A stretch of DNA of 34,194 bases from Candidatus Pullichristensenella excrementigallinarum (lineage in GTDB: Bacteria; Bacillota; Clostridia; Christensenellales; Aristaeellaceae): contig DVMU01000058.1 in NCBI GenBank assembly GCA_018714825.1, positions 1 to 34,194 on the forward strand. Direction: 5' to 3'. This document shows, in pieces, positions 8,475-26,314 of this stretch (within the stretch, counting starts at the first letter, position 1; each line of letters opens with the position of its first letter). The translations under genes were made by a program, and so were the position numbers. The notes under the pieces are model-generated. The model was not told the DNA's origin. It searched no databases and saw only the letters and a program-made list of their open reading frames with translations.

Positions 8475-9740
8475 TTACTTTTCTTCCGCGCAGGCGCGCA
8501 GACGGCTGGTCAGGCCGCGCAGGTTATAGGCAGAAACGTACTTGCCGATGCTGCGCTTGATCTTATCCAGAACAAAGCGGCGGGCGGGCACGTTCGCGGC
8601 CTCCAAATTATCGAGCATCTTCTTCAATTCGGGCGCCACAGCCTCGGATTCATAGGTGTAATGTCCGCTGATATCCAGGATCAGATTGGCCAGCTCCTCG
8701 TCAGCCAGCACCTGCTCCACGGTCAGTTCCGCCTGCTCTCCGACCATCCACTTGCGCCAGCGATTGGTCTCCACGGCTGTCTTGCGCATGACTTCAAAGA
8801 GGTTGCTCTTCTGCGGCACAATGCCCTTTTCGAACAGTTCCGCTTCCAGTTTGGCGAGGGTGACATACGCGCGGGTTTCATCCACGCCGAATTCCGGCGC
8901 GACGTTCGAGGACCCCACCTTCAGCGCCGGATGCATCAAAAGCAGGCGATCGGGCAGGTAGTCGCCGTTGTGCTCCTTGAGCTCCATGCCGTACTTTGCC
9001 GCCACGGACGCCAGAAGCTGCGCGTTCTCGGTGGAATAGTGGCCGATATTCTCCGTCAGGCGGGTCAGGGTTCCGGTCTGCCCCACGATGAAATTGGGCG
9101 TGGGCAATCCCTTCTCCGTGAGCATCTTGCACAAGCGCTCGATAAACTCCGCGAATTCCTTGGTGCCGGTCAGGCCGCCGTTGGTTTCCTCTGTTCCCAC
9201 CTCATAGCCGATGGGCGGAAGGTTTTTCTCCAGGCGATACTTCTCCACGGCCTCGATCAATTCCACCGTGCGCCGAAGCACGATATCCATCGGAACGGTT
9301 CCCTTGATGTGCGGATCCTTGGTCGGATCAATGTGCAAAAGATCAAATCCCGCGTCCAGATCCGCCAGGTAGCTCTTCAGCCCGCGCGCCATGGCTTCCT
9401 CCTCGGGAAGCGCGGCCCTGCGCTCTTCATCGCGCTGCCAGGGACCGCCGTGATCGCGGCAGACATAGTACAATCCGTCATAATCGATCTTCCTGGCCAT
9501 GTCCGCGATGGCCTGGCAGAACTGCTTCTGATCCCATCCGGAAACATATCCGCCGCCGAATTCCTGAATATCGATCTGATTGCGGCTGGCAATAAAGAGA
9601 ATCGGGAAATCCTGCTCTTTGGAAAGCTCCAAAGTCGCCTGCAAAAGCATGGGCGACATCGGGCCAATGCCCAGCAACGTGGAAAATCCGCCCATCTCCC
9701 GGGCCTTGGGCAACGCATGTACCATTTGAATAATGTTCAT
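8475..9740 (-). CDS. GatZ/KbaZ-like family protein (D-tagatose-1,6-bisphosphate aldolase non-catalytic-subunit family, or related epimerase)
   Basis: MNIIQMVHALPKAREMGGFSTLLGIGPMSPMLLQATLELSKEQDFPILFIASRNQID..GYVSGWDQ..; DHGGPW..LLHIDPTKD..YEVGTEETNGG; RBS agagga upstream. Confidence 0.82.
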   Translation of the reverse strand: MNIIQMVHALPKAREMGGFSTLLGIGPMSPMLLQATLELSKEQDFPILFIASRNQIDIQEFGGGYVSGWDQKQFCQAIADMARKIDYDGLYYVCRDHGGPWQRDEERRAALPEEEAMARGLKSYLADLDAGFDLLHIDPTKDPHIKGTVPMDIVLRRTVELIEAVEKYRLEKNLPPIGYEVGTEETNGGLTGTKEFAEFIERLCKMLTEKGLPTPNFIVGQTGTLTRLTENIGHYSTENAQLLASVAAKYGMELKEHNGDYLPDRLLLMHPALKVGSSNVAPEFGVDETRAYVTLAKLEAELFEKGIVPQKSNLFEVMRKTAVETNRWRKWMVGEQAELTVEQVLADEELANLILDISGHYTYESEAVAPELKKMLDNLEAANVPARRFVLDKIKRSIGKYVSAYNLRGLTSRLRACAEEK

Positions 9741-9843
9741 CTGATAATCCTCTCTTCCCGGTTCATGAATTTGGTGGAAAATATCGCGCACGAGGCGCGC
9801 CATTCCCTTTTTCTCGTTTTCAATCCGCCCCTCTTGCGCATCT

Positions 9844-10779
9844 TCAAAGCGCCTGCGCGGCCAGAAGCGCGGCTCCTACCAATCCAGCATCCGGCGCGAG
9901 GCGCGCCTTGCGCAGCCATTTCTCCGATTCCGCTCCCCAATAGCTCAACGCCTCCACCGTCCGCACCAGACTGGGCGCGAACAGATCGAAGGCATGGACC
10001 ACCGATCCGCCCAACACCACGCATTCGATATCCACCAGCATCTGCAGGGCCGCGATGCCTCGTCCCAATTTTTCCCCGGCCTCCCGATAAATTGAGAGAC
10101 AGAGAGCGTCCCCTTCCCGCGCGCACTGGGCGACCTCCCTGGCCGTAACGGACGCATATTGGGAAAGCGCGGTGGGTTCGATTTTCATGCGTTCCCGCGC
10201 CATGGCGGCGATCCCGGTGCCGGAAGCGTATGCCTCCAGGCATCCCGTGCGGCCGCACAGGCAGGGCCGTCCTCCCTCCGGCACGACGTTCAGATGCCCG
10301 AATTCTCCTGCGGATTCATGAAATCCCTGAAGAATTTTTCCATCCAGAACCAATCCGCAGCCCACGCCCGTGGAAACCGTCAGATAGGCCAGGCTCGAGC
10401 TTCCCCTGCCCGCGCCCAACCGGTATTCTCCATATGCGGCGGCGTTTGCGTCGTTTTCCAAGATCACCGGGCAATCAAATTGCTGGGAAATCCTCCTGGT
10501 AATGGGCAAATTCCGCCACCCCAGCGTAGGAGCAAAAATTACTTCTCCTCGCGAAGGCGAAAGCGGACCCGGACACGCGACGCCGATGGCCTCCGGCGCC
10601 TCTTCCCCCGCCAAGGCAAGCGCCTCCCGAATCGTCCGGCAAATGCGCTCCACCACGGCGTCCGGCCCCTGACGGGCCTCTGTCGGCGCTTCGCTGCGAG
10701 TACGCATGACGCCGTCCGGCCGAAATACTCCCGCCGAAATCTTGGTCCCTCCAATATCCAGCGCCACAATTCCCGCCAT
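9844..10779 (-). CDS. ROK family sugar kinase (glucokinase-like)
   Basis: MAGIVALDIGGTKISAGVF..VILENDANAAAYGEYRLGAGRG..CLCGRTGCLEAYASG; Zn-binding CxCGxxGCxE; RBS gaaggag. Confidence 0.92.
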   Translation of the reverse strand: MAGIVALDIGGTKISAGVFRPDGVMRTRSEAPTEARQGPDAVVERICRTIREALALAGEEAPEAIGVACPGPLSPSRGEVIFAPTLGWRNLPITRRISQQFDCPVILENDANAAAYGEYRLGAGRGSSSLAYLTVSTGVGCGLVLDGKILQGFHESAGEFGHLNVVPEGGRPCLCGRTGCLEAYASGTGIAAMARERMKIEPTALSQYASVTAREVAQCAREGDALCLSIYREAGEKLGRGIAALQMLVDIECVVLGGSVVHAFDLFAPSLVRTVEALSYWGAESEKWLRKARLAPDAGLVGAALLAAQAL

Positions 10780-10847
10780 CGTTCTCTCCTTCTCTCCCGC
10801 GCACAACGGAAATCCTGCAAATTTTTCCGGAAAGAAGTTGTGTAATC

Positions 10848-10876
10848 TTGCTATTTATATCTTATTATGATATATT
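10848..10876 (+). promoter_or_regulatory. candidate divergent promoter of the HAD-led operon
   Basis: TTGCTA-17 bp-TATATT; the shared operator lies across the spacer and -10. Confidence 0.45.
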
Positions 10877-10879
10877 ATA
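10859..10879 (-). promoter_or_regulatory. candidate operator overlapping the -10 (TATAATATATCATAATAAGAT)
   Basis: 20/21 identical to the block at 17028..17048; contains near-palindrome ATCATAATAAGAT. Confidence 0.6.
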
Positions 10880-10902
10880 TATGGATGCATGTCATTCGTC
10901 AA
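10874..10902 (-). promoter_or_regulatory. promoter for the ROK kinase/GatZ-like operon
   Basis: Minus strand TTGACG (10897-10902) -17 bp- TATAAT (10874-10879). Confidence 0.7.
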
Positions 10903-10971
10903 GTAAATTGTGGAAACGACCGGGGCAGAAGCATTGCATCCTCTATTTTTTGCGTGTTACAGGAGGCTTGT

Positions 10972-11790
10972 ATGACGGGCGGAATAGAGTTTGTCCGCGA
11001 GGGCCGTACCGGAAATTTCCGGTATGCGGTTCTGGATTTTGACGGGACCATTTCCCTGGTTCGCGAAGGCTGGCAGCAAATCATGATTCCCTATTTTGCC
11101 GATGAGCTGGCAAAGACTCCGGTAGGGCGCGACATGCCCTGGGATGCTTTGGAACTCAAGGCGCGGGAATTTATCACGCTTCTTACCGGCAAGCAGACCA
11201 TCTACCAGTGCATCCATCTCGCGGAAGAAATCACCGCCATGGGGGGAAAGCCCGAAGATCCGCAGGCATATAAGGACGAATACCACCGCCGCCTGCTCGT
11301 GCATATCGACGATCGCCTGAAGGGCCTTGCCTCGGGCACGATCGATCCGGAGACGCTGGTTGTCCCCGGAAGTTACGATTTGCTGGAAATGCTGCTGCGG
11401 CACAATGTCACCCCCTACCTGGCTTCGGGAACCGACGAAGTCTATGTCCTGGAGGAAGCGCGGCTGATTCGGGTGGACAAGTACTTCGGCCCGCATATCT
11501 ACGGCGCGCAGCGCGAGTACAAGACCTTCTCCAAGAAGATGGTCATCGAGCGCATCCTGCGGGAAAACCATCTCTCCGGCGAAGAACTTCTGGGCTTTGG
11601 CGACGGATATGTCGAAATCGAAAACATCCGCGATGCCGGCGGCTTTGCCGTGGGCGTGGCCTCCAACGAGGCAGAGCGCCAGGGCATCGACGAATGGAAG
11701 CGCGAGCGCCTCATCCGCGCGGGCGCAAATCTCATCATTCCCGACTATCGCGACATCGCGTCGCTGGAAGCGGCGCTGTTTGACAGGTAA
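10972..11790 (+). CDS. HAD superfamily hydrolase/phosphatase
   Basis: FRYAVLDFDGTISLVREGW..; motif I DFDGT, motif II-like SGTDE, GFGDGYVEIEN motif IV; AGGAGG upstream of the ATG at 10972. Confidence 0.85.
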   Translation: MTGGIEFVREGRTGNFRYAVLDFDGTISLVREGWQQIMIPYFADELAKTPVGRDMPWDALELKAREFITLLTGKQTIYQCIHLAEEITAMGGKPEDPQAYKDEYHRRLLVHIDDRLKGLASGTIDPETLVVPGSYDLLEMLLRHNVTPYLASGTDEVYVLEEARLIRVDKYFGPHIYGAQREYKTFSKKMVIERILRENHLSGEELLGFGDGYVEIENIRDAGGFAVGVASNEAERQGIDEWKRERLIRAGANLIIPDYRDIASLEAALFDR

Positions 11791-11804
11791 GGAGGCGAAA
11801 ATAT

Positions 11805-12773
11805 ATGCCCTTTGCAATGTTTGATCGTTCCCGACTCAACCTTCTTCCCCTGGGCGAACGCATTCACGATCTGGACCTGAGCATCATGCAGGCTCCGGTG
11901 CAGGACAACGGCTATCGTCATCCGACCATCGACATCCTCGCCGAGCGCATCCGCGCGGCCAGGGAAAAGAGCGCGAACGTCACCATGATGCTGGGCGGAC
12001 ACGTCATCCGCGCGGGCGTTGCGCCCTGCATGATCGCCATGATGGAAGCCGGTTACATCACGCACTTTGCCATGAACGGCGCGGCGGCGATTCACGATTT
12101 TGAACTGGCCCTGATCGGCGCGACCACCGAAAGCGTCGCCAAGTACATCTCCGAAGGGCAGTTCGGCCTCTGGAAAGAGACGGGGCTGTACAACGACGCC
12201 GTCAACGAGGGCGCGCGCGACGGGCTGGGTTTCGGCGAATCGCTCGGCCGTTATATCGAAGAACACAATTTCCCCTACAAGCAGTATAGCCTTCTGGCCG
12301 CGGGATATCGCAACCAGGCGCCGGTGACGGTGCATGTAGGCGTGGGGTGCGACATCGTCCACGAACATCCCAACGCGGACGGCGCGCGCATCGGGGAAGC
12401 CACTTATCGCGATTTTCTGATTTACGCGCATCAAATGGAAAGCCTGGAAAACGGCGTATTTATGGATTTTGGTTCCGCGGTCATCGGCCCGGAGGTCTAT
12501 CTCAAGGCGCTGGCCATGGCGCGCAACGTCGCCCATCAGGAGGGCCGCCGGATTGTGCATTTCACCACCGCCGTGTTCGACCTTCTGGAACTCGAAGGCA
12601 AAAACGTGCACGAAGCGCCGCCCAAATCCGATCCGAGATACTATTTCCGTCCCTGGAAGACCATCATGGCGCGGACCGTTGCCGACGGGGGCGAAAGCTT
12701 CTATGTACAGGGCGTGCATAAAGATACCGTCCCGGCGCTTTCCTGGGCGCTGCTTGGGGAGGGAAAGGCATGA
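11805..12773 (+). CDS. conserved protein of unassigned function, possibly deoxyhypusine synthase-like fold
   Basis: 322 aa, RBS ggaggc; TMMLGGHVIRAGVAPCMIAMMEAGYITHFAMNGAAAIHDFELALIGATTESVAKYI..GQFGLWKETG..HVGVGCDIVHEHPNADG. The NGAxxIHDxExALxG pattern is reminiscent of DHS-superfamily proteins; family not confirmed. Confidence 0.5.
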   Translation: MPFAMFDRSRLNLLPLGERIHDLDLSIMQAPVQDNGYRHPTIDILAERIRAAREKSANVTMMLGGHVIRAGVAPCMIAMMEAGYITHFAMNGAAAIHDFELALIGATTESVAKYISEGQFGLWKETGLYNDAVNEGARDGLGFGESLGRYIEEHNFPYKQYSLLAAGYRNQAPVTVHVGVGCDIVHEHPNADGARIGEATYRDFLIYAHQMESLENGVFMDFGSAVIGPEVYLKALAMARNVAHQEGRRIVHFTTAVFDLLELEGKNVHEAPPKSDPRYYFRPWKTIMARTVADGGESFYVQGVHKDTVPALSWALLGEGKA

Positions 12774-13789
12774 ATCGCGCGCGGCTGCAAGAACTGTTAA
12801 GCCGGTTCTCCCAACTGCGCATCGTCGTGGCCGGGGATCTGTTTTTGGATCGCTGGTATGAGATCGATACGCAGCTAAACGAGCCTTCTTTGGAAACCGG
12901 GCTGACCGCCTACCAAATTGTCAAAAAGCGCTCTGCGGCGGGCGCGGCCGGAACGGTTCTGAACAATCTGAGCGAAATGGGCATTGGCCACCTGGAAGTC
13001 ATTTCCCTGGTGGGAGAAGACGGTGACGGTTGGGAAATGCTCCAGCGGCTCAACGAACGCGGCGTGGACACTTCCAAAGTCCTGCAAAGCGACCGCGTGG
13101 TTACCCCCGCATACATCAAGCCGCTCTTCCCCGAGGAGGGCAATCGCTTCGACGTCAAAAACTTCTCCCCAACCCCGGAAGATTTGCAGGAGGAAATCAT
13201 CCGCCGCATCGAGGCGTCGCTTGCCGATGCGGACGCGCTGGTGCTTCTCGAGCAGGTGTGCGAGGTGGATACGGGCGTGATCACCTCCCATGTGCGCAAC
13301 GCTATCCGGCAAATGGCCCTGCGTCATCCGGACAAATTGATTTACGCCGATTCGCGCGCATTCATCCATCTCTATCGCGATGTGGTCATCAAGTGCAACA
13401 ACCTCGAGGCCGCGCGCATGACCGGGCGCGAGGCAGACGAGGAGCATTTCGATAGGGAGGAAGTCTTCCGCTGCATGGACGAGCTCAAACAAATTACGCA
13501 CCGTCCGGTTATCATTACCTGCAACCGGCACGGCGTGGCCGTGGAGGAGGGGGGCAAAAAGCTCCTGGTCCCCGCGGTTCGCCATTCCTGCCCCATCGAC
13601 ATCTGCGGCGCGGGCGACGCCTGCACCGCCGGGTTGGTCAGCGCGCTGTGCGCGGGCGGCAGTTACGCGGAAGCCGCGTTTCTGGGGAACCTCTCCTCAG
13701 GCGTCACCGTGCGCCAGATCGGGCGTACCGGAGCCGCCGGCCAGGAGGCCATGCTGCGCCTGTATGACGAACAGTGGAAGGAGGAATAG
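12770..13789 (+). CDS. PfkB family carbohydrate kinase, HldE/RfaE N-domain-like (no nucleotidyltransferase domain)
   Basis: LRIVVAGDLFLDRWYEID..GAAGTVLNNLSEMG..CPIDICGAGDACTAGLVSALCAG; GAGDA signature; 4-bp overlap with the upstream gene. Confidence 0.87.
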   Translation: MNRARLQELLSRFSQLRIVVAGDLFLDRWYEIDTQLNEPSLETGLTAYQIVKKRSAAGAAGTVLNNLSEMGIGHLEVISLVGEDGDGWEMLQRLNERGVDTSKVLQSDRVVTPAYIKPLFPEEGNRFDVKNFSPTPEDLQEEIIRRIEASLADADALVLLEQVCEVDTGVITSHVRNAIRQMALRHPDKLIYADSRAFIHLYRDVVIKCNNLEAARMTGREADEEHFDREEVFRCMDELKQITHRPVIITCNRHGVAVEEGGKKLLVPAVRHSCPIDICGAGDACTAGLVSALCAGGSYAEAAFLGNLSSGVTVRQIGRTGAAGQEAMLRLYDEQWKEE

Positions 13790-13791
13790 CC

Positions 13792-14709
13792 TTGGATTGC
13801 TATTTATGCCTGGACATTGGCGGTTCGAAGTATATCGTGGGCCTCATTGATCGCGCGGGCAACGTGCTTGCCGAAAAGCGCGGGGTATGGCCGGTTCTGA
13901 GCGAGCGCTGTGTCCTCGAGCAGACCCTGACCGCCGCGCGCGCGTTGATTGCCGAAACCGGGAAAACGCCCCTGGCCTGCGGCATCACCATTCCCGGCCT
14001 GGCCGATCCTCAAAACGGAATGTGGGTGGAGGCTTCCTTTTCGGGCATCCGCAATTTCCCCATTTGTCAAGAAGTGGAAAAGGCGCTGGGGATTCCGACC
14101 TTCTGCGATAACGACGGCCAGGCATACGCGTTGGCGGAAATGCTCTTCGGCGCGTGCCGGGATGTAAAGGACTTTCTGTATGTCAACGTCTCCAACGGCA
14201 TCGGCGGTTCCGTGGTCATGGGCGGCAAGCTTCAGTACGGCGCCAGCGGAAACGCCGGGGAAATCGGCCACAGCGTGGTGGTGGAAAATGGCCGCCGCTG
14301 CAAATGCGGCCTGAACGGCTGCCTGGAAATGCACGCGGCCGGTCCCGGAATCGCCCGCAACTATGCCGAAATGGGCGGCGAAACCCCCGCTGATGCCAAG
14401 GAAATCGCCCGGCGCGCCCGCGAAGGCGAAAAGATCGCCCAGGATGTCTGGCAATTAGAAGGGGAATTGCTCGCCAAGAACATCGCTGTGGCAATCAATG
14501 TATTGAATCCGGCAAAGGTCGTCCTCGGTGGCGGAGTTTCTTTGGCCTTCGATCTGTTCGGCCCGCCTTTGAAGCAGGCCATTCACGAGAGGATCTACCG
14601 CGCCGCCAATCCCGATCTGGAAGTGTTGCCCACGCCGTTGGGATACCTGGCCGGCCTGTACGGCGCGGCGGCCATCGCCGTCTCGCGCACGGAACATCTG
14701 TTTTCCTAA
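13792..14709 (+). CDS. ROK family sugar kinase, second copy (divergent)
   Basis: TTG start after gaaggagg: MDCYLCLDIGGSKYIVGLIDRAG..FCDNDGQAYALAEM..CKCGLNGCLEMHAAGPGIA. Confidence 0.88.
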   Translation: MDCYLCLDIGGSKYIVGLIDRAGNVLAEKRGVWPVLSERCVLEQTLTAARALIAETGKTPLACGITIPGLADPQNGMWVEASFSGIRNFPICQEVEKALGIPTFCDNDGQAYALAEMLFGACRDVKDFLYVNVSNGIGGSVVMGGKLQYGASGNAGEIGHSVVVENGRRCKCGLNGCLEMHAAGPGIARNYAEMGGETPADAKEIARRAREGEKIAQDVWQLEGELLAKNIAVAINVLNPAKVVLGGGVSLAFDLFGPPLKQAIHERIYRAANPDLEVLPTPLGYLAGLYGAAAIAVSRTEHLFS

Positions 14710-14746
14710 TTTCCATCCCATAAACTCAATTGCAAGGAGGAATACC

Positions 14747-15316
14747 ATGAATCCTGTCCTGGACGCCTATCGCGAGGAACTGATTTCGGAAATTCAAAAA
14801 ATCGATACCGCCGAATTCCAAAAGTGGATCGACATTCTCCTGGACGCCTATAAAAACGATCGCCAGATTTTCCTGGCCGGAAACGGCGGCAGCGCCGGAA
14901 CCGTAAACCACTTTGTCTGCGATTTTGGCAAGAACGCCGTGCAGGGCGACAAGCGCCGCTTCCGCGTGCATTCGGTCTGCGACAATGTCGAAGTCATCAC
15001 CGCATTGGGCAACGACATCGCCTTTGAGGAGATCTACCGCTTTCAACTGGGCAACGCCATGCGCCCGGGCGACGTGCTCATCGTCATCAGCGCCAGCGGC
15101 AATTCGCCTGATCTGGTCAATGCCTGCCAATATGCCAAGCAAATCGGCGGCAAGGTGGTGGCGCTCTCCGGCTTTGGCGGCGGCAAGATCTGCAACGGCG
15201 CGGACGCAGTCCTCGCAACGGACATGACCAGCTATGAACGCATCGAGGATTTGCACCTGATCCTCTTCCACATGGTGGTCTGCTGGTTCAAAGCCAATCA
15301 GGACAAGCTCGCCTGA
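14747..15316 (+). CDS. SIS-domain sugar-phosphate isomerase, GmhA (phosphoheptose isomerase)-like
   Basis: FLAGNGGSAGTVNHFVCDFGKNA..ITALGNDIAFEEIYRFQLGNAMRPGDVLIVISASGNSPDLVNACQYAK; aaggaggaa RBS. Confidence 0.87.
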   Translation: MNPVLDAYREELISEIQKIDTAEFQKWIDILLDAYKNDRQIFLAGNGGSAGTVNHFVCDFGKNAVQGDKRRFRVHSVCDNVEVITALGNDIAFEEIYRFQLGNAMRPGDVLIVISASGNSPDLVNACQYAKQIGGKVVALSGFGGGKICNGADAVLATDMTSYERIEDLHLILFHMVVCWFKANQDKLA

Positions 15317-15334: not shown

Positions 15335-15356
15335 AGGAACCGCGCAAACGGTTCCT
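15335..15356. repeat. 22-bp palindromic repeat, copy A (AGGAACCGCGCAAACGGTTCCT)
   Basis: Identical to 15580..15601; stem AGGAACCG/CGGTTCCT. Confidence 0.9.
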
Positions 15357-15397
15357 CAGACTGTCGAAAAGCTCTGTGGGGAAGAATCTTTTCAATC

Positions 15398-15432
15398 GAG
15401 CGCGGCGGCGTGTACGTCGCGCTCGGTTTTTC
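15398..15432 (+). terminator. Rho-independent terminator of the HAD...SIS operon
   Basis: GAGCGCGGCG-GCGTGTA-CGTCGCGCTC stem followed by GGTTTTT. Confidence 0.75.
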
Positions 15433-15463
15433 CGGAGCACAAGCGAAGGAAAAACAATTCCGC

Positions 15464-15578
15464 CCGTCAGGAAATCGCCCGGAAAATCCGCAGATTTTCA
15501 GATTTCCGCAGTTCTCTTCCTCCTCCATGAAAATCCGCAGATTTTCATGGAGCGTGTCAAAATCCCTTTTGACACGCA
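15464..15578. repeat. dispersed palindromic intergenic element, copy 1 (with internal duplication)
   Basis: CGTCAGGAAATCGCCCGGAAAATCCGCAGATTTTCA ... GAAAATCCGCAGATTTTCATGGAGCGTGTCAAAATCCCTTTTGACACGCA; shared with 23108..23175. Confidence 0.85.
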
Positions 15579-15579
15579 G

Positions 15580-15601
15580 AGGAACCGCGCAAACGGTTCC
15601 T
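15580..15601. repeat. 22-bp palindromic repeat, copy B
   Basis: AGGAACCGCGCAAACGGTTCCT, identical to 15335..15356; followed by ttattttgttg on +. Confidence 0.9.
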
Positions 15602-17004: not shown

Positions 17005-17033
17005 TTGACACCCTTGGTTTTTCCGCTTATAAT
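17005..17033 (+). promoter_or_regulatory. consensus sigmaA promoter of the sugar ABC transporter operon
   Basis: TTGACA (17005-17010) -17 bp- TATAAT (17028-17033). Confidence 0.8.
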
Positions 17034-17316: not shown

Positions 17317-18315
17317 ATGAAGAAACTCGCAACTATCCTGTTGGTCGCCGTTATGCTGCTCGCCATGGTCGGCAGCGCAAGCGCCATCACCATCGGCGCG
17401 TCCATCCGTAAGTATGACGATACCTTCCTTACGGAAATGCGCAACCACATGCAGGCCAAGGCCGACGAATTGGGCGTGGAAGTGGACTTCACCGACTCCA
17501 AGGCGGATCAGACCACCCAGAACAACAACATCGACCTGTATCTGACCAAGGGCTATGAGGCTCTGGCGGTCAACATGCAGGAGCGCTCGGCTGCAGACGT
17601 TGTCATCCAGAAGGCCATGGCCGACGACGTGCCGTGCGTGTTCTTCAACACCGAGCCCTTTGCCGAGGCTTTGGATCTGTGGGACAAGGTCTACTATGTC
17701 GGCGCGAAGGCCGAAGAGTCCGGCACGATGCAGGGCGTGGCCATGGCCGCCTACTGGGATGCGCATCCGGAAGCCGATAAGAACGGCGACGGCATCATTC
17801 AGTATGTGCAGATCACCGGCGAGCCCGGCCACCAGGATGCCGAGCTGCGCAGCGAATATTCCATCAAGTATCTGACCGACAACGGCTACCAGGTCGAGTG
17901 CCTCGCGCAGGACACCGCCATGTGGGACCGCGTCAAGGGCCAGGATAAGATGGCGACCTTCCTCGCCGCGCACGGCGACAACATCGAAGCCGTCTTCTGC
18001 AACAACGACGATATGGCTCTGGGCGCCATCGAGGCCCTGAAGGCCGCGGGTTACTTCACCGAGGGCGGCAAGTACGTCCCGGTCATGGGCGTGGATGCCA
18101 CCGAGCCCGGCAAGATGGCCATCAAGGACGGCACCATGCTTGCCACCTCGCTCAACGACGCCAAGGGCCAGGCCTACGCGACCATCGAGCTGTGCAACCT
18201 GCTGGCCAACGGCGAAACGCCGACCGAGGAGAACTTCTCCTACACCATCACCGACGGCAAGTACATCTGGATCCCCTATGTGGCCGTGAACGCGGATAAC
18301 GTGGACGAGTTCTAA
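17317..18315 (+). CDS. sugar ABC transporter substrate-binding protein (MglB-like, Peripla_BP_4)
   Basis: Signal peptide MKKLATILLVAVMLLAMVGSASA; NGDGIIQYVQITGEPGHQDAELRS resembles the MglB calcium-loop region; AVFCNNDDMALGAIEALK. Confidence 0.9.
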   Translation: MKKLATILLVAVMLLAMVGSASAITIGASIRKYDDTFLTEMRNHMQAKADELGVEVDFTDSKADQTTQNNNIDLYLTKGYEALAVNMQERSAADVVIQKAMADDVPCVFFNTEPFAEALDLWDKVYYVGAKAEESGTMQGVAMAAYWDAHPEADKNGDGIIQYVQITGEPGHQDAELRSEYSIKYLTDNGYQVECLAQDTAMWDRVKGQDKMATFLAAHGDNIEAVFCNNDDMALGAIEALKAAGYFTEGGKYVPVMGVDATEPGKMAIKDGTMLATSLNDAKGQAYATIELCNLLANGETPTEENFSYTITDGKYIWIPYVAVNADNVDEF

Positions 18316-18406: not shown

Positions 18407-19912
18407 ATGAGCCAGAGGGAATTTGTTCTTGAAATGAAGAATATTTGCAAGGAATTCCCCGGCGTGCGTGCGCTGAACAACGTCAATTTCAATCTTCGCC
18501 CAGGTACGGTACACGCGCTTATGGGAGAGAACGGCGCCGGGAAATCGACGCTGATGAAATGCTTGTTCGGCATTTACGCCAAGGATTCCGGAAGTATTCT
18601 GCATAACGGCAAGGAAGTAAATTACACCTGTACGCTGGACGCTATCAAGGACGGCGTAGCAATGATCCACCAGGAGCTGTACCCCGAACCGCATCTGAGC
18701 GTTCAGGAGAATATCTGGCTCGGAAGGCTCCCGCTCAAGCACGGCATTGTCGATAAAAAGCGCCTTTACACGGATACTAGGGAGCTTTTGGACCGCCTGA
18801 GCCTCGATCTGAACCCCAAGGCGTTGGTTCGCACGCTTTCCGTTTCCAAGATTCAGTCCATTGAAATCGCCAAGGCTGTCTCTCACGACGCCGAAGTGAT
18901 TATCATGGACGAGCCCACTTCTTCGTTGACGGAAAATGAGGTTGACCACCTCTTTGGCATCATCAATGACCTCCGAAGCAAGGGCGTGGCCATTGTCTAT
19001 ATTTCCCACAAGATTGAGGAAATCAAGCGCATCGCCGATGAGATCAGCATCATGCGCGACGGCAACATGATCGGCACATGGCCGGCTTCCGAATTGGATA
19101 CGGACGATATCATCAGCCGCATGGTCGGTCGCGACATGAGTATGCGCTTCCCGCCCAAAACCAGCACCCCCGGCGAGGTATACTTGGAAGCGGAGGATCT
19201 GACCTCCGTCAATGATCGCAGTTTCCAGCATGTCTCCTTCAACCTTCGCAGGGGAGAAATTCTCGGCATCGGCGGACTGGTCGGCGCGCAGCGCACGGAG
19301 CTAATCGAGAGCATCTTCGGTCTGCGCGCGCTCAAAAGCGGCGTGATCAAGATCCATGGGAAACCCGTCAAAATCAACAACCCCACCGATGCCATGAAAA
19401 ACGGCATTGCGCTTCTGACCGAGGAGCGCAAGCGCACGGGGCTTTTCCCCGTCCTTAGCGTGGGTGAAAACATCTATGTGGCCATCTACAAGCGGATTGC
19501 CAAGTTCCTTGGCTATATCAGCGCCAAGACCTGCAACAGGCTTGCGGAGGACAGCATCGCGCAGCTCGGCATCAAAACGCCTTCCCGGAAAACGCCCATC
19601 AACAGCCTCTCCGGCGGAAACCAGCAAAAGGCGCTGTTTGCGCGCTGGCTTCTGACCGAGCCGGATATCCTCTTGCTGGATGAGCCGACTCGCGGCATCG
19701 ACGTGGGCGCCAAATATGAAATCTACAAAATCATGGATTCTCTTGCCGCCCAGGGAAAGTGCGTGGTCATGATTTCCAGCGAAATGCCGGAGTTGATCGG
19801 CATGGCGGACCGAATCATGGTCATGTGTGAGGGCAAATTGGCGGGCATCGTCGAAGGCGAAGATATGCAAGAAGAACCCATCATGCGCTTGGCCACCAAA
19901 TTCATGGTTTGA
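18407..19912 (+). CDS. sugar ABC transporter ATP-binding protein (MglA/RbsA-like, two ABC domains)
   Basis: Walker A GENGAGKST, IIMDEPTSSLTENE, degenerate second NBD GLVGAQRTELIES, LSGGNQQKALFARWL. Confidence 0.95.
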   Translation: MSQREFVLEMKNICKEFPGVRALNNVNFNLRPGTVHALMGENGAGKSTLMKCLFGIYAKDSGSILHNGKEVNYTCTLDAIKDGVAMIHQELYPEPHLSVQENIWLGRLPLKHGIVDKKRLYTDTRELLDRLSLDLNPKALVRTLSVSKIQSIEIAKAVSHDAEVIIMDEPTSSLTENEVDHLFGIINDLRSKGVAIVYISHKIEEIKRIADEISIMRDGNMIGTWPASELDTDDIISRMVGRDMSMRFPPKTSTPGEVYLEAEDLTSVNDRSFQHVSFNLRRGEILGIGGLVGAQRTELIESIFGLRALKSGVIKIHGKPVKINNPTDAMKNGIALLTEERKRTGLFPVLSVGENIYVAIYKRIAKFLGYISAKTCNRLAEDSIAQLGIKTPSRKTPINSLSGGNQQKALFARWLLTEPDILLLDEPTRGIDVGAKYEIYKIMDSLAAQGKCVVMISSEMPELIGMADRIMVMCEGKLAGIVEGEDMQEEPIMRLATKFMV

Positions 19913-19927
19913 TGTGAGGTGCGAAGA

Positions 19928-20968
19928 ATGAATACAAATCAGTCCTCCCAAGTTGTCCAGTCCAAGAAGAAGCCAATGCAATCCATCGGCCAATTTGTCA
20001 CAAACAACGCGATCATGTTGTGTCTGATCGTAATGGTGCTTGTGATCATCTGTATCGAGCCTAACTTCGCCTCTCTGCGCGTGTTGCGGAATGTGGCGGA
20101 GCAGAACTCTACCAAGTTGATCATGGCTTGCGGCATGGCGTTTGTCCTGATTGTCGGCGGCGTGGACCTTTCCGCAGGCCGCGTCATGGGCTTTGCCGCC
20201 GTCATCACCGCTTCTCTTGGCCAGACCATCGAGTACACCCGCCTGTTCTATCCCAACATGGGCCAGCTTCCCTTCTTTGTTCCGTTGCTGGCGGCCATGG
20301 CGGTCGGTGCACTGTTCGGTGCGTTTAACGGCTTTATCATCTCCCGATTTAAGATCACCGCGTTTATCGTAACCTTGGGCACGCAGGTCATCGCCTGGGG
20401 CGTAAACCTCCTGTATTTTGACATCGAGCCGAACTCCTCGCAGCCCATCGGCGGCGTACAGCAAAGCATCACCAATCTGGGTTCCGGGTTGATTGCGAAC
20501 AACATTCCGATCGTCTTGTTGATCGCCATTGCGGTATGCCTGCTGTGCTGGTTCATCCTCTCCAAGACGCGCTTCGGCCGCAACACTTACGCAATCGGCG
20601 GCAATGCCGAAGCCGCGTTGGTTTCCGGCATTCGCGTGCAGCGCGTGCAGATCGGCGTATACGCCCTGGCGGGCGTCCTGTACGGCTTGGCCGGTTTCCT
20701 CGAGTGCGCTCGTACCGGCGGCGCGACTTCCGCGTATGGCCTGAACTATGAATTCGACGCCATCTCCGCCTGCGTGGTCGGCGGCGTTTCCAACACCGGC
20801 GGTATCGGAACGGTTCCGGGCATGATCCTCGGCGTTCTGGTATTCGGCATCATTAACTACGGCTTGACCTTCATCGGCGTCAACCCGTATTGGCAGCAGA
20901 TCATCAAGGGCATCATCATCATCGCCGCTGTCGGCGTCGATATGAGCAAGAACCGCAAGAGGAAGTAA
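19928..20968 (+). CDS. sugar ABC transporter permease (MglC/RbsC-like)
   Basis: Multi-TM; AFVLIVGGVDLSAGRVMGFAAVITA, ITAFIVTLGTQVIAWGVN, TYAIGGNAEAALVSGI. Confidence 0.94.
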   Translation: MNTNQSSQVVQSKKKPMQSIGQFVTNNAIMLCLIVMVLVIICIEPNFASLRVLRNVAEQNSTKLIMACGMAFVLIVGGVDLSAGRVMGFAAVITASLGQTIEYTRLFYPNMGQLPFFVPLLAAMAVGALFGAFNGFIISRFKITAFIVTLGTQVIAWGVNLLYFDIEPNSSQPIGGVQQSITNLGSGLIANNIPIVLLIAIAVCLLCWFILSKTRFGRNTYAIGGNAEAALVSGIRVQRVQIGVYALAGVLYGLAGFLECARTGGATSAYGLNYEFDAISACVVGGVSNTGGIGTVPGMILGVLVFGIINYGLTFIGVNPYWQQIIKGIIIIAAVGVDMSKNRKRK

Positions 20969-21125: not shown

Positions 21126-21184
21126 ATTTGGTAGAAGGGTCTTTCAACCCGCAAGCCCAAAATCAATTCAATGGAGGGGATATC

Positions 21185-22978
21185 GTGAGCAAGAATCGAA
21201 CCATTGGCGAATACCCGGTCATCGGAATCCGCCCCGTGATCGACGCCCGCCGCGGCGCGCTTCGCGTCCGCGAGGGTTTGGAAGAGCAGACCATGAACAT
21301 GGCGCGCTCTGCGGCCAAGCTCTTTGAGGAAAACCTTTGCTATTCCAATGGAGAACCGGTCAAGGTCATCATCGCGGATACCACCATCGGCCGCGTGGCC
21401 GAGGCCGCCGCGTGTGAGGCGAAATTTGCGCGCGAGGGCGTCATGATCACCCTCACCGTAACTCCCTGCTGGTGCTATGGCTCCGAAACCATGGACATGA
21501 ACAAAATGACCATCAAGGGCGTCTGGGGCTTCAACGGTACCGAGCGTCCGGGCGCTGTGTACCTGGCCAGCGTGCTCGCCTCCCATGCGCAGAAGGGCCT
21601 GCCCGCCTTCGGCATCTACGGCCATGACGTCCAGAACGCGGACGATACCGAGATCCCCGACGACGTGCGCGAAAAGCTGCTTCGGTTCGGTCGCGCGGCG
21701 GTCGCCGTGGCTTCCATGCGCGGCAAGAGCTATCTGCAGATCGGTTCGATCTGCATGGGCATCGGCGGCTCGATCATCGATTCCGCCTTCATCGAGGAGT
21801 ATCTGGGAATGCGCGTGGAATCCGTGGACGAAGTCGAAATCATTCGCCGCATGACCCAGGGCATCTATGACGAGGCCGAATACCAGAAGGCGCTGAAATG
21901 GACGCGCGAGAACTGCATCGAGGGCTTTGACAAGAACCCCGAAGACCTCCAGCACTCCCGCGAACAGAAGGACAAGGATTGGGAATTCGTGGTCAAGATG
22001 ATGGTCATCATCAAGGACCTGATGAACGGCAATCCCAACCTTCCCAAGGGCCGCGAAGAGGAAATGTGCGGCCACAACGCCATCGCCGCCGGCTTCCAGG
22101 GACAGCGTCAGTGGACGGACTTCTATCCCAACTGTGACTTCGGCGAGGCGCTGCTCAATACCAGCTTTGACTGGAACGGCGCGCGCGAACCCTATATCCT
22201 GGCCACCGAAAACGACGTGCTCAACGGCCTGGGAATGCTGTTTATGAAGCTGTTGACCAACCGCCCGCAGATGTTTGCAGACGTGCGTACCTACTGGAGC
22301 GGAGACGCGGTCAAGAAGGCCACCGGCTATACCATTGAGGGCAAAGCCAAGGAGGCCGACGGCTTTATCCACCTGATCAACTCCGGCGCCTGCTGCCTGG
22401 ACGCCAACGGACAGGCCAAGGATGAAAACGGCAATCCGATCATGAAGCGCTGGTGGGAAGTCACCGAAGAGGATCAGAAGGCCATCCTCGAAAATACCAC
22501 TTGGAACTACGCGGACCTCGGCTACTTCCGCGGCGGCGGATATTCTTCGCGCTTTGTGACCGATGCGGAAATGCCGGTGACCATGATCCGCCTCAACCTC
22601 GTCAAGGGCCTGGGGCCGATGCTCCAGATCGCCGAGGGCTGGACGGTCAAGCTGCCCAAGGAAGTCAACGACATCCTCTGGAAGCGCACGGACTACACCT
22701 GGCCGTGCACCTGGTTCGCACCGCGCGTTACCGGAGAGGGCTTCTTCAAGGATGCCTATACGGTCATGAACAAGTGGGGCGCCAATCACGGCGCGATCAG
22801 CTACGGCCATATCGGCGCCGACCTGATCACCATGTGCTCCATGCTGCGCATCCCGGTCGCCATGCACAATGTGCCGGAAGAGAAGATCTTCCGTCCCAAC
22901 TGCTGGAATGCCTTCGGCATGGATCCGGAAGGAGCCGACTATCGCGCCTGCGCGACCTACGGCCCCCTGTTCAAGTAA
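21185..22978 (+). CDS. fucI: L-fucose isomerase (L-fucose/D-arabinose isomerase family)
   Basis: GTG start after ggagggg: [99 protein letters not shown]. Confidence 0.92.
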
Positions 22979-23107: not shown

Positions 23108-23175
23108 CCGTCAGGAAATCGCCCGGAAAATCCGCAGATTTTCATGGAGCGTGTCAAAATCCCTTTGGACACGCA
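23108..23175. repeat. dispersed palindromic intergenic element, copy 2
   Basis: CCGTCAGGAAATCGCCCGGAAAATCCGCAGATTTTCATGGAGCGTGTCAAAATCCCTTTGGACACGCA; near-identical to parts of 15464..15578. Confidence 0.85.
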
Positions 23176-23224: not shown

Positions 23225-23863
23225 TTACGCCAAATATTCCTCGATTCCGTCCGCCAACGCGCACAGGATCAGGCAGCAGCTGGTCGCGCCCGCGTCCAGC
23301 ACGCCGCGGGAACGCTCGCCCAGGCGGCTCGCGCGGCCGAGCTTGGCAACCAAATCCTTGGTGGAATCGCGGCCCGCCTCCGCGGCGGCCTTCATCTTAT
23401 GCAGCGCTTCCGGGAACGTCGCGCCGCCGTCGATCGCGGCCTGATACGCGTCCGCCGCCGGAGAAAGCGCGTCCATGAGGGTCTTGTCGCCGACCTTCGC
23501 GCCGCCCAGTTCCGTAATGCCGTCGCGCGCGGCATTGAGCATGACGGCGAAGTCTTCCTTGGAAAGTTCCTCCTTGCCCTTTGCCTTGCGGGACATCTGG
23601 ATAAAGAAGGTTCCGTACAGAGGGCCCATGGAGCCGCCGATATCGCTCATCAGGGTGCGACTGAGCGTCTTGAACGCCTCGGAGAGGTTCATCTGCGTGT
23701 CCCCCACCTTGTCGGCGAACATGGTAAAGCCCTTGTTCATGTTGATTCCGTGATCGCCATCGCCAATCAGGCCGTCCACCTCGGAAAGGTAATCCTTGTT
23801 GGCCTGAATCGTGTGCGCAATTTTCAGCGCGACCTGCGCGCCCTTATCGCAGGGAAAAGTCAT
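23225..23863 (-). CDS. dhaL: dihydroxyacetone/tetrulose kinase subunit L (DhaL-like)
   Basis: MTFPCDKGAQVALKIAHTIQANKDYLSEVDGLIGDGDHGINMNKGF..DIGGSMGPLYGTFF; GDGDHG and GGSxGPLYG motifs. Confidence 0.88.
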   Translation of the reverse strand: MTFPCDKGAQVALKIAHTIQANKDYLSEVDGLIGDGDHGINMNKGFTMFADKVGDTQMNLSEAFKTLSRTLMSDIGGSMGPLYGTFFIQMSRKAKGKEELSKEDFAVMLNAARDGITELGGAKVGDKTLMDALSPAADAYQAAIDGGATFPEALHKMKAAAEAGRDSTKDLVAKLGRASRLGERSRGVLDAGATSCCLILCALADGIEEYLA

Positions 23864-24873
23864 TTTGCGTCCCTCCCAAACTGCGTGAGGCCCATGCTCT
23901 CGCATTCCATATCCAAAAGCTGCTTGAGTTCCTCATCCAGCTTCATGACGGTCAGCGTCACGCCCATCATTTCCAGCGAGGTGAAGTAATTGCCCACATA
24001 CGAGCGGTACACGGAAATGCCCTTTTCGGCGAGCAGCTCTTCGACCTTGTTATAGACGATGTACTGTTCCATGACCGGAGTCGCGCCCAGGCCGGAGAGC
24101 AGCACGCAGACCTCGTCGCCCTTTTCGAAGGGCAGATCGGGGAGAACCACATCCAGCATGATCTCCGCCATCTCGTCCGCGGTGGCCAGTTTCTGCACGC
24201 GGATGCCCGGCTCGCCGTGATGGCCGATGCCCAGTTCCATGGTGCCCGGCTCGATGGTGAAATTCGGATGGCCGACCGCCGGAATCGTGCACGGCGCGAC
24301 GCCGATGCCGATGGAGCGGGTGTTGTCAATCGCCTTCTGCGCGGCCGCGATGACCTCGTCCAGACTCGCGCCGGTTGCGGCCTTGGCGCCGCCGATCTTC
24401 CACATGAGAATTTCGCCCGCCACGCCGCGGCGCTTTTCGGGAGTATCCTTGGGAGCGGACGCCGCATCGTCATTGGCCACGACCTTCTTGACGACGATAT
24501 CGTCATCCTCGGCCATCTCAATGGCCATCTTGACGTTCATGTTGTCGCCCGCATAGTTGCCATACAGGCAGGCCACGCCCGCGCCGTTGTCCGCCGCCAC
24601 GAACGCATCGTAGAACGCCTGCGCCGACGGAGAAGAGAAGATCTCGCCCACCGCGACTGCGTCCACCAGATTCTTGCCGAGATAGCCGATGAACGCGGGC
24701 TTGTGTCCGGAACCGCCGCCCGTCACGATGCCGACCTTGCCGGGCTTGTTCGCATGCTTGGATTTGAGGACGCGGGGATTGTCGGTGGCCTCCACGATGT
24801 CCTTATGGTTCTTGACAAAACCCTTGAGCATATCCTCCACGACATAATCGGGATTGTTGATGATTCTCTGCAC
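23860..24873 (-). CDS. dhaK: dihydroxyacetone/tetrulose kinase subunit K (DhaK-like)
   Basis: NKPGKVGIVTGGGSGHKPAFIGYLG..NYAGDNMNVKMA..MELGIGHHGEPGIR; substrate-binding His motif GHHGEPG. Confidence 0.92.
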   Translation of the reverse strand: MQRIINNPDYVVEDMLKGFVKNHKDIVEATDNPRVLKSKHANKPGKVGIVTGGGSGHKPAFIGYLGKNLVDAVAVGEIFSSPSAQAFYDAFVAADNGAGVACLYGNYAGDNMNVKMAIEMAEDDDIVVKKVVANDDAASAPKDTPEKRRGVAGEILMWKIGGAKAATGASLDEVIAAAQKAIDNTRSIGIGVAPCTIPAVGHPNFTIEPGTMELGIGHHGEPGIRVQKLATADEMAEIMLDVVLPDLPFEKGDEVCVLLSGLGATPVMEQYIVYNKVEELLAEKGISVYRSYVGNYFTSLEMMGVTLTVMKLDEELKQLLDMECESMGLTQFGRDAK

Positions 24874-24874
24874 T

Positions 24875-25342
24875 TTACTTTACCCCCTCGCGCATGAATT
24901 GCTGTTCGTATTCCATGATGCGTTCGACCTTCGCCGTCGATCCGCCGCCCGCGAAATCGCAGGTCAACCAATGGGAAACCAGGAGCTTGGCCAATTCCAT
25001 GCCAATCACCCGCGCGCCCATGCACATGACCTGGGCGTTGTTGGACTTGCGCGAACGCTCGGTGGAGAACATATCGTGGCAAACGGCCGCGCGAATGCCC
25101 GGCACCTTGTTCGCGGACATGGCCATTCCGATGCCGGTTCCGCACATGAGAATTCCGCGTTCGGCATTGCCGTTCAGGATCTCCTTGCAGACCGCAACCG
25201 CGATGTCGGGATAGAGCACGGGCGTCTTATCGTACACGCCCTTATCGATCACTTCATACCCCTTGCTTTCCAGAAGCGCCTTGATCGCTTCCTTCATTTC
25301 CAGGGCCGCCTCGTCGCAGCCCACGGCAATTCTCTTATCCAT
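24875..25342 (-). CDS. RpiB/LacA/LacB family sugar-phosphate isomerase
   Basis: MDKRIAVGCDEAALEMKEAIKALLESKGYEVIDKG..ERGILMCGTGIGMAMSANKVPGIRAAVCHDMFSTERSRKSNNAQVMCMGARVIG. Confidence 0.9.
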   Translation of the reverse strand: MDKRIAVGCDEAALEMKEAIKALLESKGYEVIDKGVYDKTPVLYPDIAVAVCKEILNGNAERGILMCGTGIGMAMSANKVPGIRAAVCHDMFSTERSRKSNNAQVMCMGARVIGMELAKLLVSHWLTCDFAGGGSTAKVERIMEYEQQFMREGVK

Positions 25343-26199
25343 CAGTGCAATTCCTCCGCAATCTTCTTCAAATTCCGCAGTCCGTCGATGGCCAGCGCCT
25401 CTCCGGTCGGCGCGAAGCTGCGCCAAATCGCACAGTTTCCGCTCAGCTCTTCGAAGCTCGGGTCAAAGGACTCAATGACCAGCGGTCCGTCGTATCCGAT
25501 CTCTTCCAGCGCCAGGAAGAACTCCTTGAACGGCACAAGGCCCGTTCCCGGGATGCCGCGATCGTTCTCGTTGACATGCACATAGCCCAGATATTCCTTG
25601 CCGCAGGTCCTGACCGCGCCGGCAAAGCTCTTCTCCTCGCGGATCATGTGGAAGCAGTCCAGATGCACCTTCATGTTGGAATTGCCCACGGCCTTGCAGT
25701 ACTTGACCGCATCCTCGGCAATATTGAGGAAGTGCGTCTCAAAGCGGTTGACGCATTCCACGGCGATCACGCCGTCCCATTCATTTTTGGCATAATCGGA
25801 GATTTCGCGCATGGCGGTAACCGACCAATCCCACTCCTGCTCGGTGCGCGGCTTGCGCGTGAGATAGCCCCAACCCGCGTAATTGACGCCGCCGGTAATC
25901 TTGCTGCCCAGTGCGACGTTGATGTCGATCATCTTCTTCATGTGCCGGATCGCATTTTTGCGAATTTCCGGATCGGGAGAGATCATATTGGTGTCCAATC
26001 CCAAGGTGGTGGTCGTCACCAATTCCAGGCCGGTCTCCTTTTTCTTCTCCAGCACGCCCTCCAGGGGGAACGTCTCCGGGTGCGCAATCGCAAGGTCCAC
26101 TACCTCAAAGCCCAATTCCTTGGCCTTGGGGATGATCCACAGGTCTTTTTCCGAAAAAACTTCCGTCCAGATAAAGCTGTCCACACCAAATTTAAACAT
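25342..26199 (-). CDS. TIM-barrel sugar (phosphate) isomerase/epimerase
   Basis: MFKFGVDSFIWTEVFSEKDLWIIPKAKELGFEVVDLAIAHPETFPLEG..HLDCFHMIREEKSF..YVHVNENDRGIPGTGLVPFKEFF; RBS ggaggaaa; stop overlaps the RpiB-like start. Confidence 0.87.
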   Translation of the reverse strand: MFKFGVDSFIWTEVFSEKDLWIIPKAKELGFEVVDLAIAHPETFPLEGVLEKKKETGLELVTTTTLGLDTNMISPDPEIRKNAIRHMKKMIDINVALGSKITGGVNYAGWGYLTRKPRTEQEWDWSVTAMREISDYAKNEWDGVIAVECVNRFETHFLNIAEDAVKYCKAVGNSNMKVHLDCFHMIREEKSFAGAVRTCGKEYLGYVHVNENDRGIPGTGLVPFKEFFLALEEIGYDGPLVIESFDPSFEELSGNCAIWRSFAPTGEALAIDGLRNLKKIAEELH

Positions 26200-26314
26200 C
26201 CGGTTTCCTCCTTTACCTCTGTTGCCCGCCGCACGGCAGGGCCAGTATTCCCAAAAACAAATGCGAAAAAGACGACACACTCCATCCCTGCGGGATTTTT
26301 TGTCTCTATAAAGA

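Follow-up and report, generated by a model that had tools for sequence, protein, structure and literature searches.

A conserved sugar-phosphate gene module centred on an uncharacterised deoxyhypusine synthase-like protein in Candidatus Pullichristensenella excrementigallinarum

Does a compact gene cluster that combines relatives of heptose-building enzymes with a protein resembling deoxyhypusine synthase (DHS) build envelope sugars, or does it serve the consumption of an imported sugar? The question is raised by 34,194 nucleotides of Candidatus Pullichristensenella excrementigallinarum (assembly GCA_018714825.1, contig DVMU01000058.1, positions 1 to 34,194; here called the window), in which a plus-strand operon encodes, in this order, a HAD phosphatase, a DHS-like protein (DHSL), a PfkB-family kinase, the ROK-family kinase ROK2 and an SIS-domain isomerase. 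A first-pass annotation had described these genes as tightly packed and divergent from a further ROK kinase and a GatZ-like gene. Scans with Pfam and NCBIfam confirmed every gene family named for the cluster, and the packing was seen as described, with strong ribosome-binding sites and 4 bp (ATGA) shared by the 3' end of DHSL and the 5' end of PfkB. The divergent arrangement also held, with ROK1 and a GatZ/KbaZ-like gene on the minus strand, but the latter (Table 1) falls outside the interval 9844-15316 that had been assigned to the cluster. The cluster is genuine, and the case for it is stronger than in the first-pass annotation: the operon belongs to a widespread module centred on an uncharacterised DHS-fold enzyme.

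The DHS-like protein and its conserved partners

DHSL loci were gathered by a contig scan and by whole-genome searches, and came from many Bacillota families; 58 homologous loci were analysed. Since many of the locus contigs are incomplete, the co-operon counts are lower bounds. The neighbourhood analysis that the first-pass annotation had proposed placed DHSL in one operon with PfkB at 43/58 loci, with HAD at 41/58, with both of them at 38/58 and with SIS at 25/58. Fusions were also found, including single open reading frames of SIS and HAD (L073, L074, L080, L087), of HAD joined to DHSL in both possible orders (L088, L050), and of DHSL and SIS (L079). An apparent DHSL-PfkB fusion at L091 was treated as a frameshift, the DHSL there being spread over two frames. 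Conserved across Bacillota, the module extends to Chloroflexota, and the DHSL family is also present in Geobacter and Solidesulfovibrio.

The partnership with HAD is the strictest. A profile of the module HAD, searched in 391 genomes of the class, was present in exactly 24, the same 24 that hold an over-cut-off DHSL; in three of these (G070, G105, G108) the two genes lie on different contigs. Identical 24-member sets would arise by chance at about 1e-38 if the genomes were independent, which overstates the case because the genomes are related. Among 60 relatives, the two presence sets differ by one genome, which is 70% complete. The two genes thus appear to be obligate partners, and this 24/24 co-occurrence, together with the HAD/DHSL/PfkB grouping at most of the 58 loci, indicates that the arrangement is not one of chance.

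By its score against NCBIfam NF052581 (380 bits against a cut-off of 250, residues 6-313), DHSL itself belongs fully to the 'GSU2086 family'. This family carries no function assignment in NCBIfam, and none was found for it in the literature searched. The Pfam DHS family (PF01916, DS) was not matched by DHSL at 1e-3, its sole Pfam match being ArgZ-like_C_2nd, nor was it matched anywhere else in the genome. The structural model of DHSL (pLDDT 93) was matched by Foldseek with a probability of 1.00 to the LOR/SDH protein 3c2q, to AgrE/ArgZ and to DHS (1e-8 to 1e-5, TM 0.45-0.56). In a profile alignment with a DHS homologue, the N-G-A-x3-H-D region, which lies at the NAD site of DHS, is aligned and its motif kept; the alignment spans the N-terminal half only, and the catalytic lysine of DHS lies outside its reach. 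Judged by this model and alignment, DHSL has the DHS / AgrE / LOR-SDH fold and a DHS-type NAD-site motif. His, Asp, Glu, Lys, Arg and Tyr are abundant among the 44 invariant columns of the family, a pattern that fits an enzyme. The use of NAD+ by DHS and AgrE is transient and redox-neutral, and because of this DHSL is predicted, by analogy, to oxidize a phosphorylated sugar transiently with NAD+ in a reaction that would be redox-neutral overall.

The DHSL tree consists of two clades, both fully supported. A member from a surface-glycan locus (L027) is nested in the importer-linked clade 1 and is 60% identical to the window DHSL, so one DHSL chemistry has probably been reused in anabolic and catabolic settings. 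Both clades occur in tandem in a metagenome-assembled genome from sheep ileum (L020:124-5067), in the order HAD-DHSL(81%)-PfkB-HAD-DHSL(41%). At seven loci (L059, L060, L065, L067, L069, L072, L075) a clade-2 paralogue stands without co-operonic PfkB, HAD or SIS, mostly flanked by an acetyl-xylan-esterase-family gene and a GH42M-domain gene and in some cases by an FAD oxidoreductase; genomes with such a lone paralogue also carry a clade-1 module. No phage or viral homologues were found in the search.

A genome-unique operator and the sugar importer

Six intergenic regions were compared without bias, and a 17/18 match was found between the ROK1/HAD and the ROK-repressor/MglB intergenic regions; none of 200 dinucleotide shuffles reached this match, the maximum being 15. 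Across the 2.18-Mb genome the palindrome occurs at these two sites only, and the control gave no hits. One copy directly follows the -10 box of an 11/12 minus-strand promoter (10902-10874) and the other that of a 12/12 sigma-70 promoter, which is the classic position of a repressor site. The ROK repressor encoded between the two operators is, by its position, the natural candidate to bind both. This genome-unique operator, common to both promoters, supports the earlier proposal of co-regulation with a sugar ABC importer and ties the module to the glucose/galactose-type importer MglBAC.

The closest solved relative of the window MglB is a glucose/galactose-binding MglB (Table 1), and its score against the NCBIfam MglB equivalog is 310, below the cut-off of 420. 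The sugar-contact motifs that we presume for Escherichia coli MglB are mostly kept, with Tyr10 replaced by Arg. Given this binding type, the sugar imported here may be a hexose.

Similar neighbours are found at homologous loci. CUT2 sugar importers lie in or near the module at L023-L026, L028, L029, L074, L077, L080 and L085, and ROK regulators adjoin it; ABC importers, ROK regulators, and GH38 or Gfo/Idh plus TIM enzymes occur as neighbours in both clades and in Chloroflexota. Gfo/Idh and xylose-isomerase-like TIM proteins were seen near the module at L024, L074, L079 and L080. On a Chloroflexota plasmid, one stretch holds ROK, GntR, a sugar-phosphate isomerase, Gfo/Idh, DeoC, an ABC importer and HAD-DHSL-PfkB-SIS, where PfkB is annotated 'hypothetical protein' and is named here from its position and size; the DeoC and Gfo/Idh proteins of L029 are 55% and 54% identical to those of the plasmid. 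A BNR/DHDPS pair lies near the module at L053; a sialic-acid reading of it was rejected, because the aldolase, of a generic DHDPS-family type, scores far under the NanA equivalog cut-off and no NCBIfam family was matched by the BNR protein.

Possible routes and substrates

In the reading that we prefer, and whose chances we regard as about even, the operon is a conserved sugar-phosphate module that serves here to break down or salvage a sugar brought in by the neighbouring Mgl-type ABC system. Gene content, operon structure, conservation, fusions, HAD-DHSL co-occurrence, the shared operator and the predicted folds were computed, and all catalytic steps are inferred. The ROK repressor would sit on both operators until the sugar or its phosphate released both transcription units. 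MglBAC would import an aldopyranose, a ROK kinase would phosphorylate it, and the GmhA-like SIS protein would interconvert aldose-phosphate and ketose-phosphate. The HldA-like PfkB would add a second phosphate, probably at C1, to give a bisphosphate. DHSL with NAD+ could then convert a phosphorylated sugar through a transient oxidation, in the form of an epimerisation, a cyclisation or an internal elimination and re-reduction, and HAD would remove one phosphate from the DHSL intermediate, the product entering central metabolism. The order of the DHSL and HAD steps is a guess from their strict pairing and fusions. In surface-glycan clusters, DHSL would act together with an HldE-like kinase/nucleotidyltransferase and a GmhA-like isomerase and supply an NDP-sugar instead.

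Several observations weigh against this reading. The activities of the module proteins are predicted from sequences and models, and the pairing of repressor and operator from position. More than half of the operons lack SIS and ROK, and the steps assigned to these two are accordingly not universal; importers are absent at some loci (L051, L063), and the seven lone clade-2 genes show DHSL without a co-operonic kinase and HAD. At the closest orthologous cluster (L028) the neighbouring MglB is another one, 31% identical, which shows that the module is not bound to one importer. Since amines are the substrates of characterised DHS-fold enzymes, DHSL might act on an amino sugar.

The alternative that survives best, which we nevertheless regard as unlikely, is that the module is heptose-specific and interconverts heptose phosphates such as manno-heptose 7-phosphate isomers and sedoheptulose 7-phosphate. 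The cell would eat heptoses from the surface polysaccharides of other bacteria, DHSL being a heptose-phosphate epimerase and SIS providing the link to sedoheptulose 7-phosphate. The best solved relative of the PfkB profile is the heptose-7-phosphate kinase HldA (7.2e-32, the next at 2.4e-22), with the S-x-E, K and R-x-D positions common to both in the alignment, which suggests that PfkB probably acts on a substrate that already carries a phosphate and yields a bisphosphate. The best solved relatives of SIS are GmhAs. In Geobacter sulfurreducens, hldE (GSU2085), GSU2086 and gmhA (GSU2087) form one operon, labelled sugar biosynthesis, and in transposon sequencing under electrode growth the three genes gave similar defects of -3.1, -3.2 and -3.7 (PMC5585712). 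DHSL also lies beside an HldE-like nucleotidyltransferase-kinase fusion and a GmhA-like SIS in L027 (Lachnospiraceae) and on Solidesulfovibrio pDCAR1, in surface-glycan-like clusters that also hold radical SAM proteins and split transketolases, and GH38 alpha-mannosidases stand beside the module at four loci (L049, L050, L057, L088). However, the HldE-N-like and GmhA-like character noted in the first-pass annotation, while present, is remote: PfkB scores 115.6 bits against TIGR02198 (HldE-N; equivalog cut-off 345), and SIS 92.7 against PRK13936 (cut-off 276) and 90 against TIGR00441 (cut-off 209). Two of the four presumed zinc ligands of GmhA are conservatively changed in the SIS clade of the window. 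Moreover, simple heptose catabolism needs neither PfkB nor HAD, transketolase homologues are confined to the surface-glycan loci, and the co-regulated MglB is of the glucose/galactose-binding type. The heptose-type chemistry suggested earlier is partly supported, by PfkB, SIS and the company of DHSL relatives but not by the importer, and a heptose-type substrate is possible.

Salvage of an amino sugar or Amadori-type compound appears improbable. By analogy with DHS and AgrE/ArgZ, which act on amines, DHSL with NAD+ would oxidize the C-N bond of a phosphorylated amino sugar, ammonia or an amine would be lost, and the carbon would be re-reduced. A carbon-nitrogen hydrolase follows PfkB at six loci (L061, L062, L064, L066, L068, L071), and an amidohydrolase and a nucleoside-phosphorylase-family gene follow DHSL-SIS at L026, but no amine-specific gene is consistently present, and SIS and PfkB are nearer to heptose-type enzymes than to the FrlB/FrlD deglycase pair (PfkB scores 38.6 bits as a fructoselysine kinase). 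At most of the six loci, the hydrolase is itself followed by a protein of 491-493 aa without a Pfam match.

We give slightly less credence still to utilisation of L-fucose or D-arabinose, in which MglBAC would import the sugar, FucI would isomerise it and the module kinases would stand in for FucK. FucI, encoded directly downstream of MglC, is a true L-fucose isomerase (1041.6 bits, equivalog cut-off 775, NF008220), but it has its own promoter-like site without the operator, an inverted repeat parts it from MglC, and it was not seen at any of the remaining 57 loci; the genome also encodes, at other places, many FGGY kinases and two class II aldolases. Neither conservation nor promoter layout supports FucI as a member of the module.

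Envelope NDP-heptose synthesis with a nucleotidyltransferase encoded elsewhere is very improbable and not supported in this genome: the set of GmhA-like, HldE-N-like, HAD and ROK proteins and the homologues in surface-glycan clusters would fit it, but no HldE-C-type nucleotidyltransferase is present in the operon or above the cut-off in the 92%-complete genome (best 66.7 against 181.5 bits), HAD is not GmhB-like, and the operator is shared with a sugar importer. The best HldE-C match, and the sole candidate for the missing enzyme, is an SDR-fused nucleotidyltransferase (L110, G000:C120:41924-42325) that was read as TagD-like and rejected. The first-pass annotation had counted HAD among the three non-transferase activities of NDP-heptose synthesis; a GmhB identity was rejected, since HAD matches no NCBIfam family and its model is closest to the C1-capped AlnB and beta-phosphoglucomutase phosphatases. 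A different, HisB/GmhB-like HAD is present in the surface-glycan locus L027. The preference of the first-pass annotation for catabolism or salvage is supported by the missing HldE-C, the operator shared with MglBAC, and the importers, glycosidases and ROK regulators at homologous loci, and such a role is probably the right one here.

A broader proposal is more tentative. The GSU2086 family might represent a new class of NAD-dependent, redox-neutral sugar-phosphate enzymes (epimerising or rearranging) on the DHS fold which, with its dedicated HAD, would define an undescribed higher-sugar pathway used for building surface sugars and, where importers are present, for eating them; we think this somewhat unlikely as a whole. 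If DHSL does work on sugar phosphates, a fold of polyamine and arginine chemistry would be extended to carbohydrates, and an unassigned Geobacter gene that matters in electrode growth would be explained. The strict partner phosphatase, the fusions and the genome-unique operator make the DHSL pathway directly testable.

Locus layout and relation to known systems

The features of the locus are collected in Table 1. Both ROK kinases score above the cut-off of PF00480 (231.6 and 212.6 bits). The GatZ/KbaZ-like protein reaches 47.3 bits against TIGR02810 (equivalog cut-off 568.8) and passes the broader PF08013 (56.8, cut-off 26.7); its gene is probably in one transcript with ROK1.

Table 1. Coordinates of the features of the locus in the window.
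Feature	Position	Strand	Remarks
GatZ/KbaZ-like TIM-barrel protein	8475-9803	-	remote; 40 bp downstream of ROK1
ROK1, ROK-family sugar kinase	9844-10779	-	311 aa; likely start ATG 10779
Palindromic operator ATATCTTATTATGATATA	10857-10874		follows -10 box of ROK1 promoter; overlaps putative HAD promoter
HAD phosphatase	10972-11790	+	272 aa; C1-capped beta-PGM/AlnB-like fold (model); mechanical ORF 10867-11790, likelier start ATG 10972 with AGGAGG in front
DHS-like protein (DHSL)	11805-12773	+	NCBIfam GSU2086 family NF052581; predicted NAD-dependent (model)
PfkB-family kinase	12770-13789	+	best solved relative HldA
ROK2, ROK-family sugar kinase	13774-14709	+	start GTG 13774, or likelier TTG 13792 behind AAGGAGGA
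SIS-domain isomerase, GmhA-like (remote)	14747-15316	+	
ROK-family repressor, N-terminal winged helix	15615-16982	-	putative regulator of both operators
Second operator copy ATATCTTAATAAGATGAA	17034-17051		follows -10 of 12/12 sigma-70 promoter 17005-17033, ahead of MglB
MglB-type sugar-binding protein	17317-18315	+	best PDB match MglB 8fxu, 3.9e-114
MglA-type ABC ATPase	18407-19912	+	
MglC-type permease	19919-20968	+	
FucI, L-fucose isomerase	21182-22978		directly downstream of MglC

The intergenic regions 15335-15601 and 23108-23175 share palindrome-rich repeats, with 50-nt (98%) and 37-nt (100%) copies and two copies of a 22-nt palindrome inside the former, which suggests a short interspersed repeat element. 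A separate minus-strand cluster at 23225-26247 encodes a psicose-3-epimerase-like TIM protein, RpiB, DhaK and DhaL and resembles tetrose/erythrulose (LerI/DerI/LerK) or dihydroxyacetone pathways (RpiB 151 against 240 for DerI).

The route of the module could not be matched to a known pathway in the literature searched, in agreement with the first-pass annotation, and partial likenesses exist to several systems. With DHS/homospermidine synthase and the AgrE/ArgZ ornithine cyclodeaminase, DHSL has in common the predicted fold and the N-terminal NAD-site motif; it differs from them in lacking a Pfam DS match, in its identity of 10-15%, and in its context of sugar-phosphate genes rather than polyamine or arginine genes. 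The Geobacter operon likewise holds a GSU2086-family protein, set between an HldE and a GmhA, but its HldE is bifunctional with a nucleotidyltransferase, whereas in the window PfkB is a kinase alone, HAD is of a different kind, there are two ROKs, and the operator links the genes to an importer. Compared with NDP-heptose biosynthesis (GmhA, HldE/HldA, GmhB, HldC/HddC, HldD), the isomerase and kinase are remote homologues, HAD is of another structural class, the DHS-fold enzyme is additional, and a nucleotidyltransferase is missing from the operon and, above the cut-off, from the genome. The fructoselysine pathway (FrlD PfkB kinase and FrlB SIS deglycase) also combines PfkB and SIS in a catabolic operon, but the families are only distantly related and it has neither a DHS-fold enzyme nor a HAD of the window type. 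The Mgl galactose/glucose importer has the same MglB/A/C order as the importer described here, whose MglB scores below the equivalog cut-off and whose operator is common with the DHSL module.

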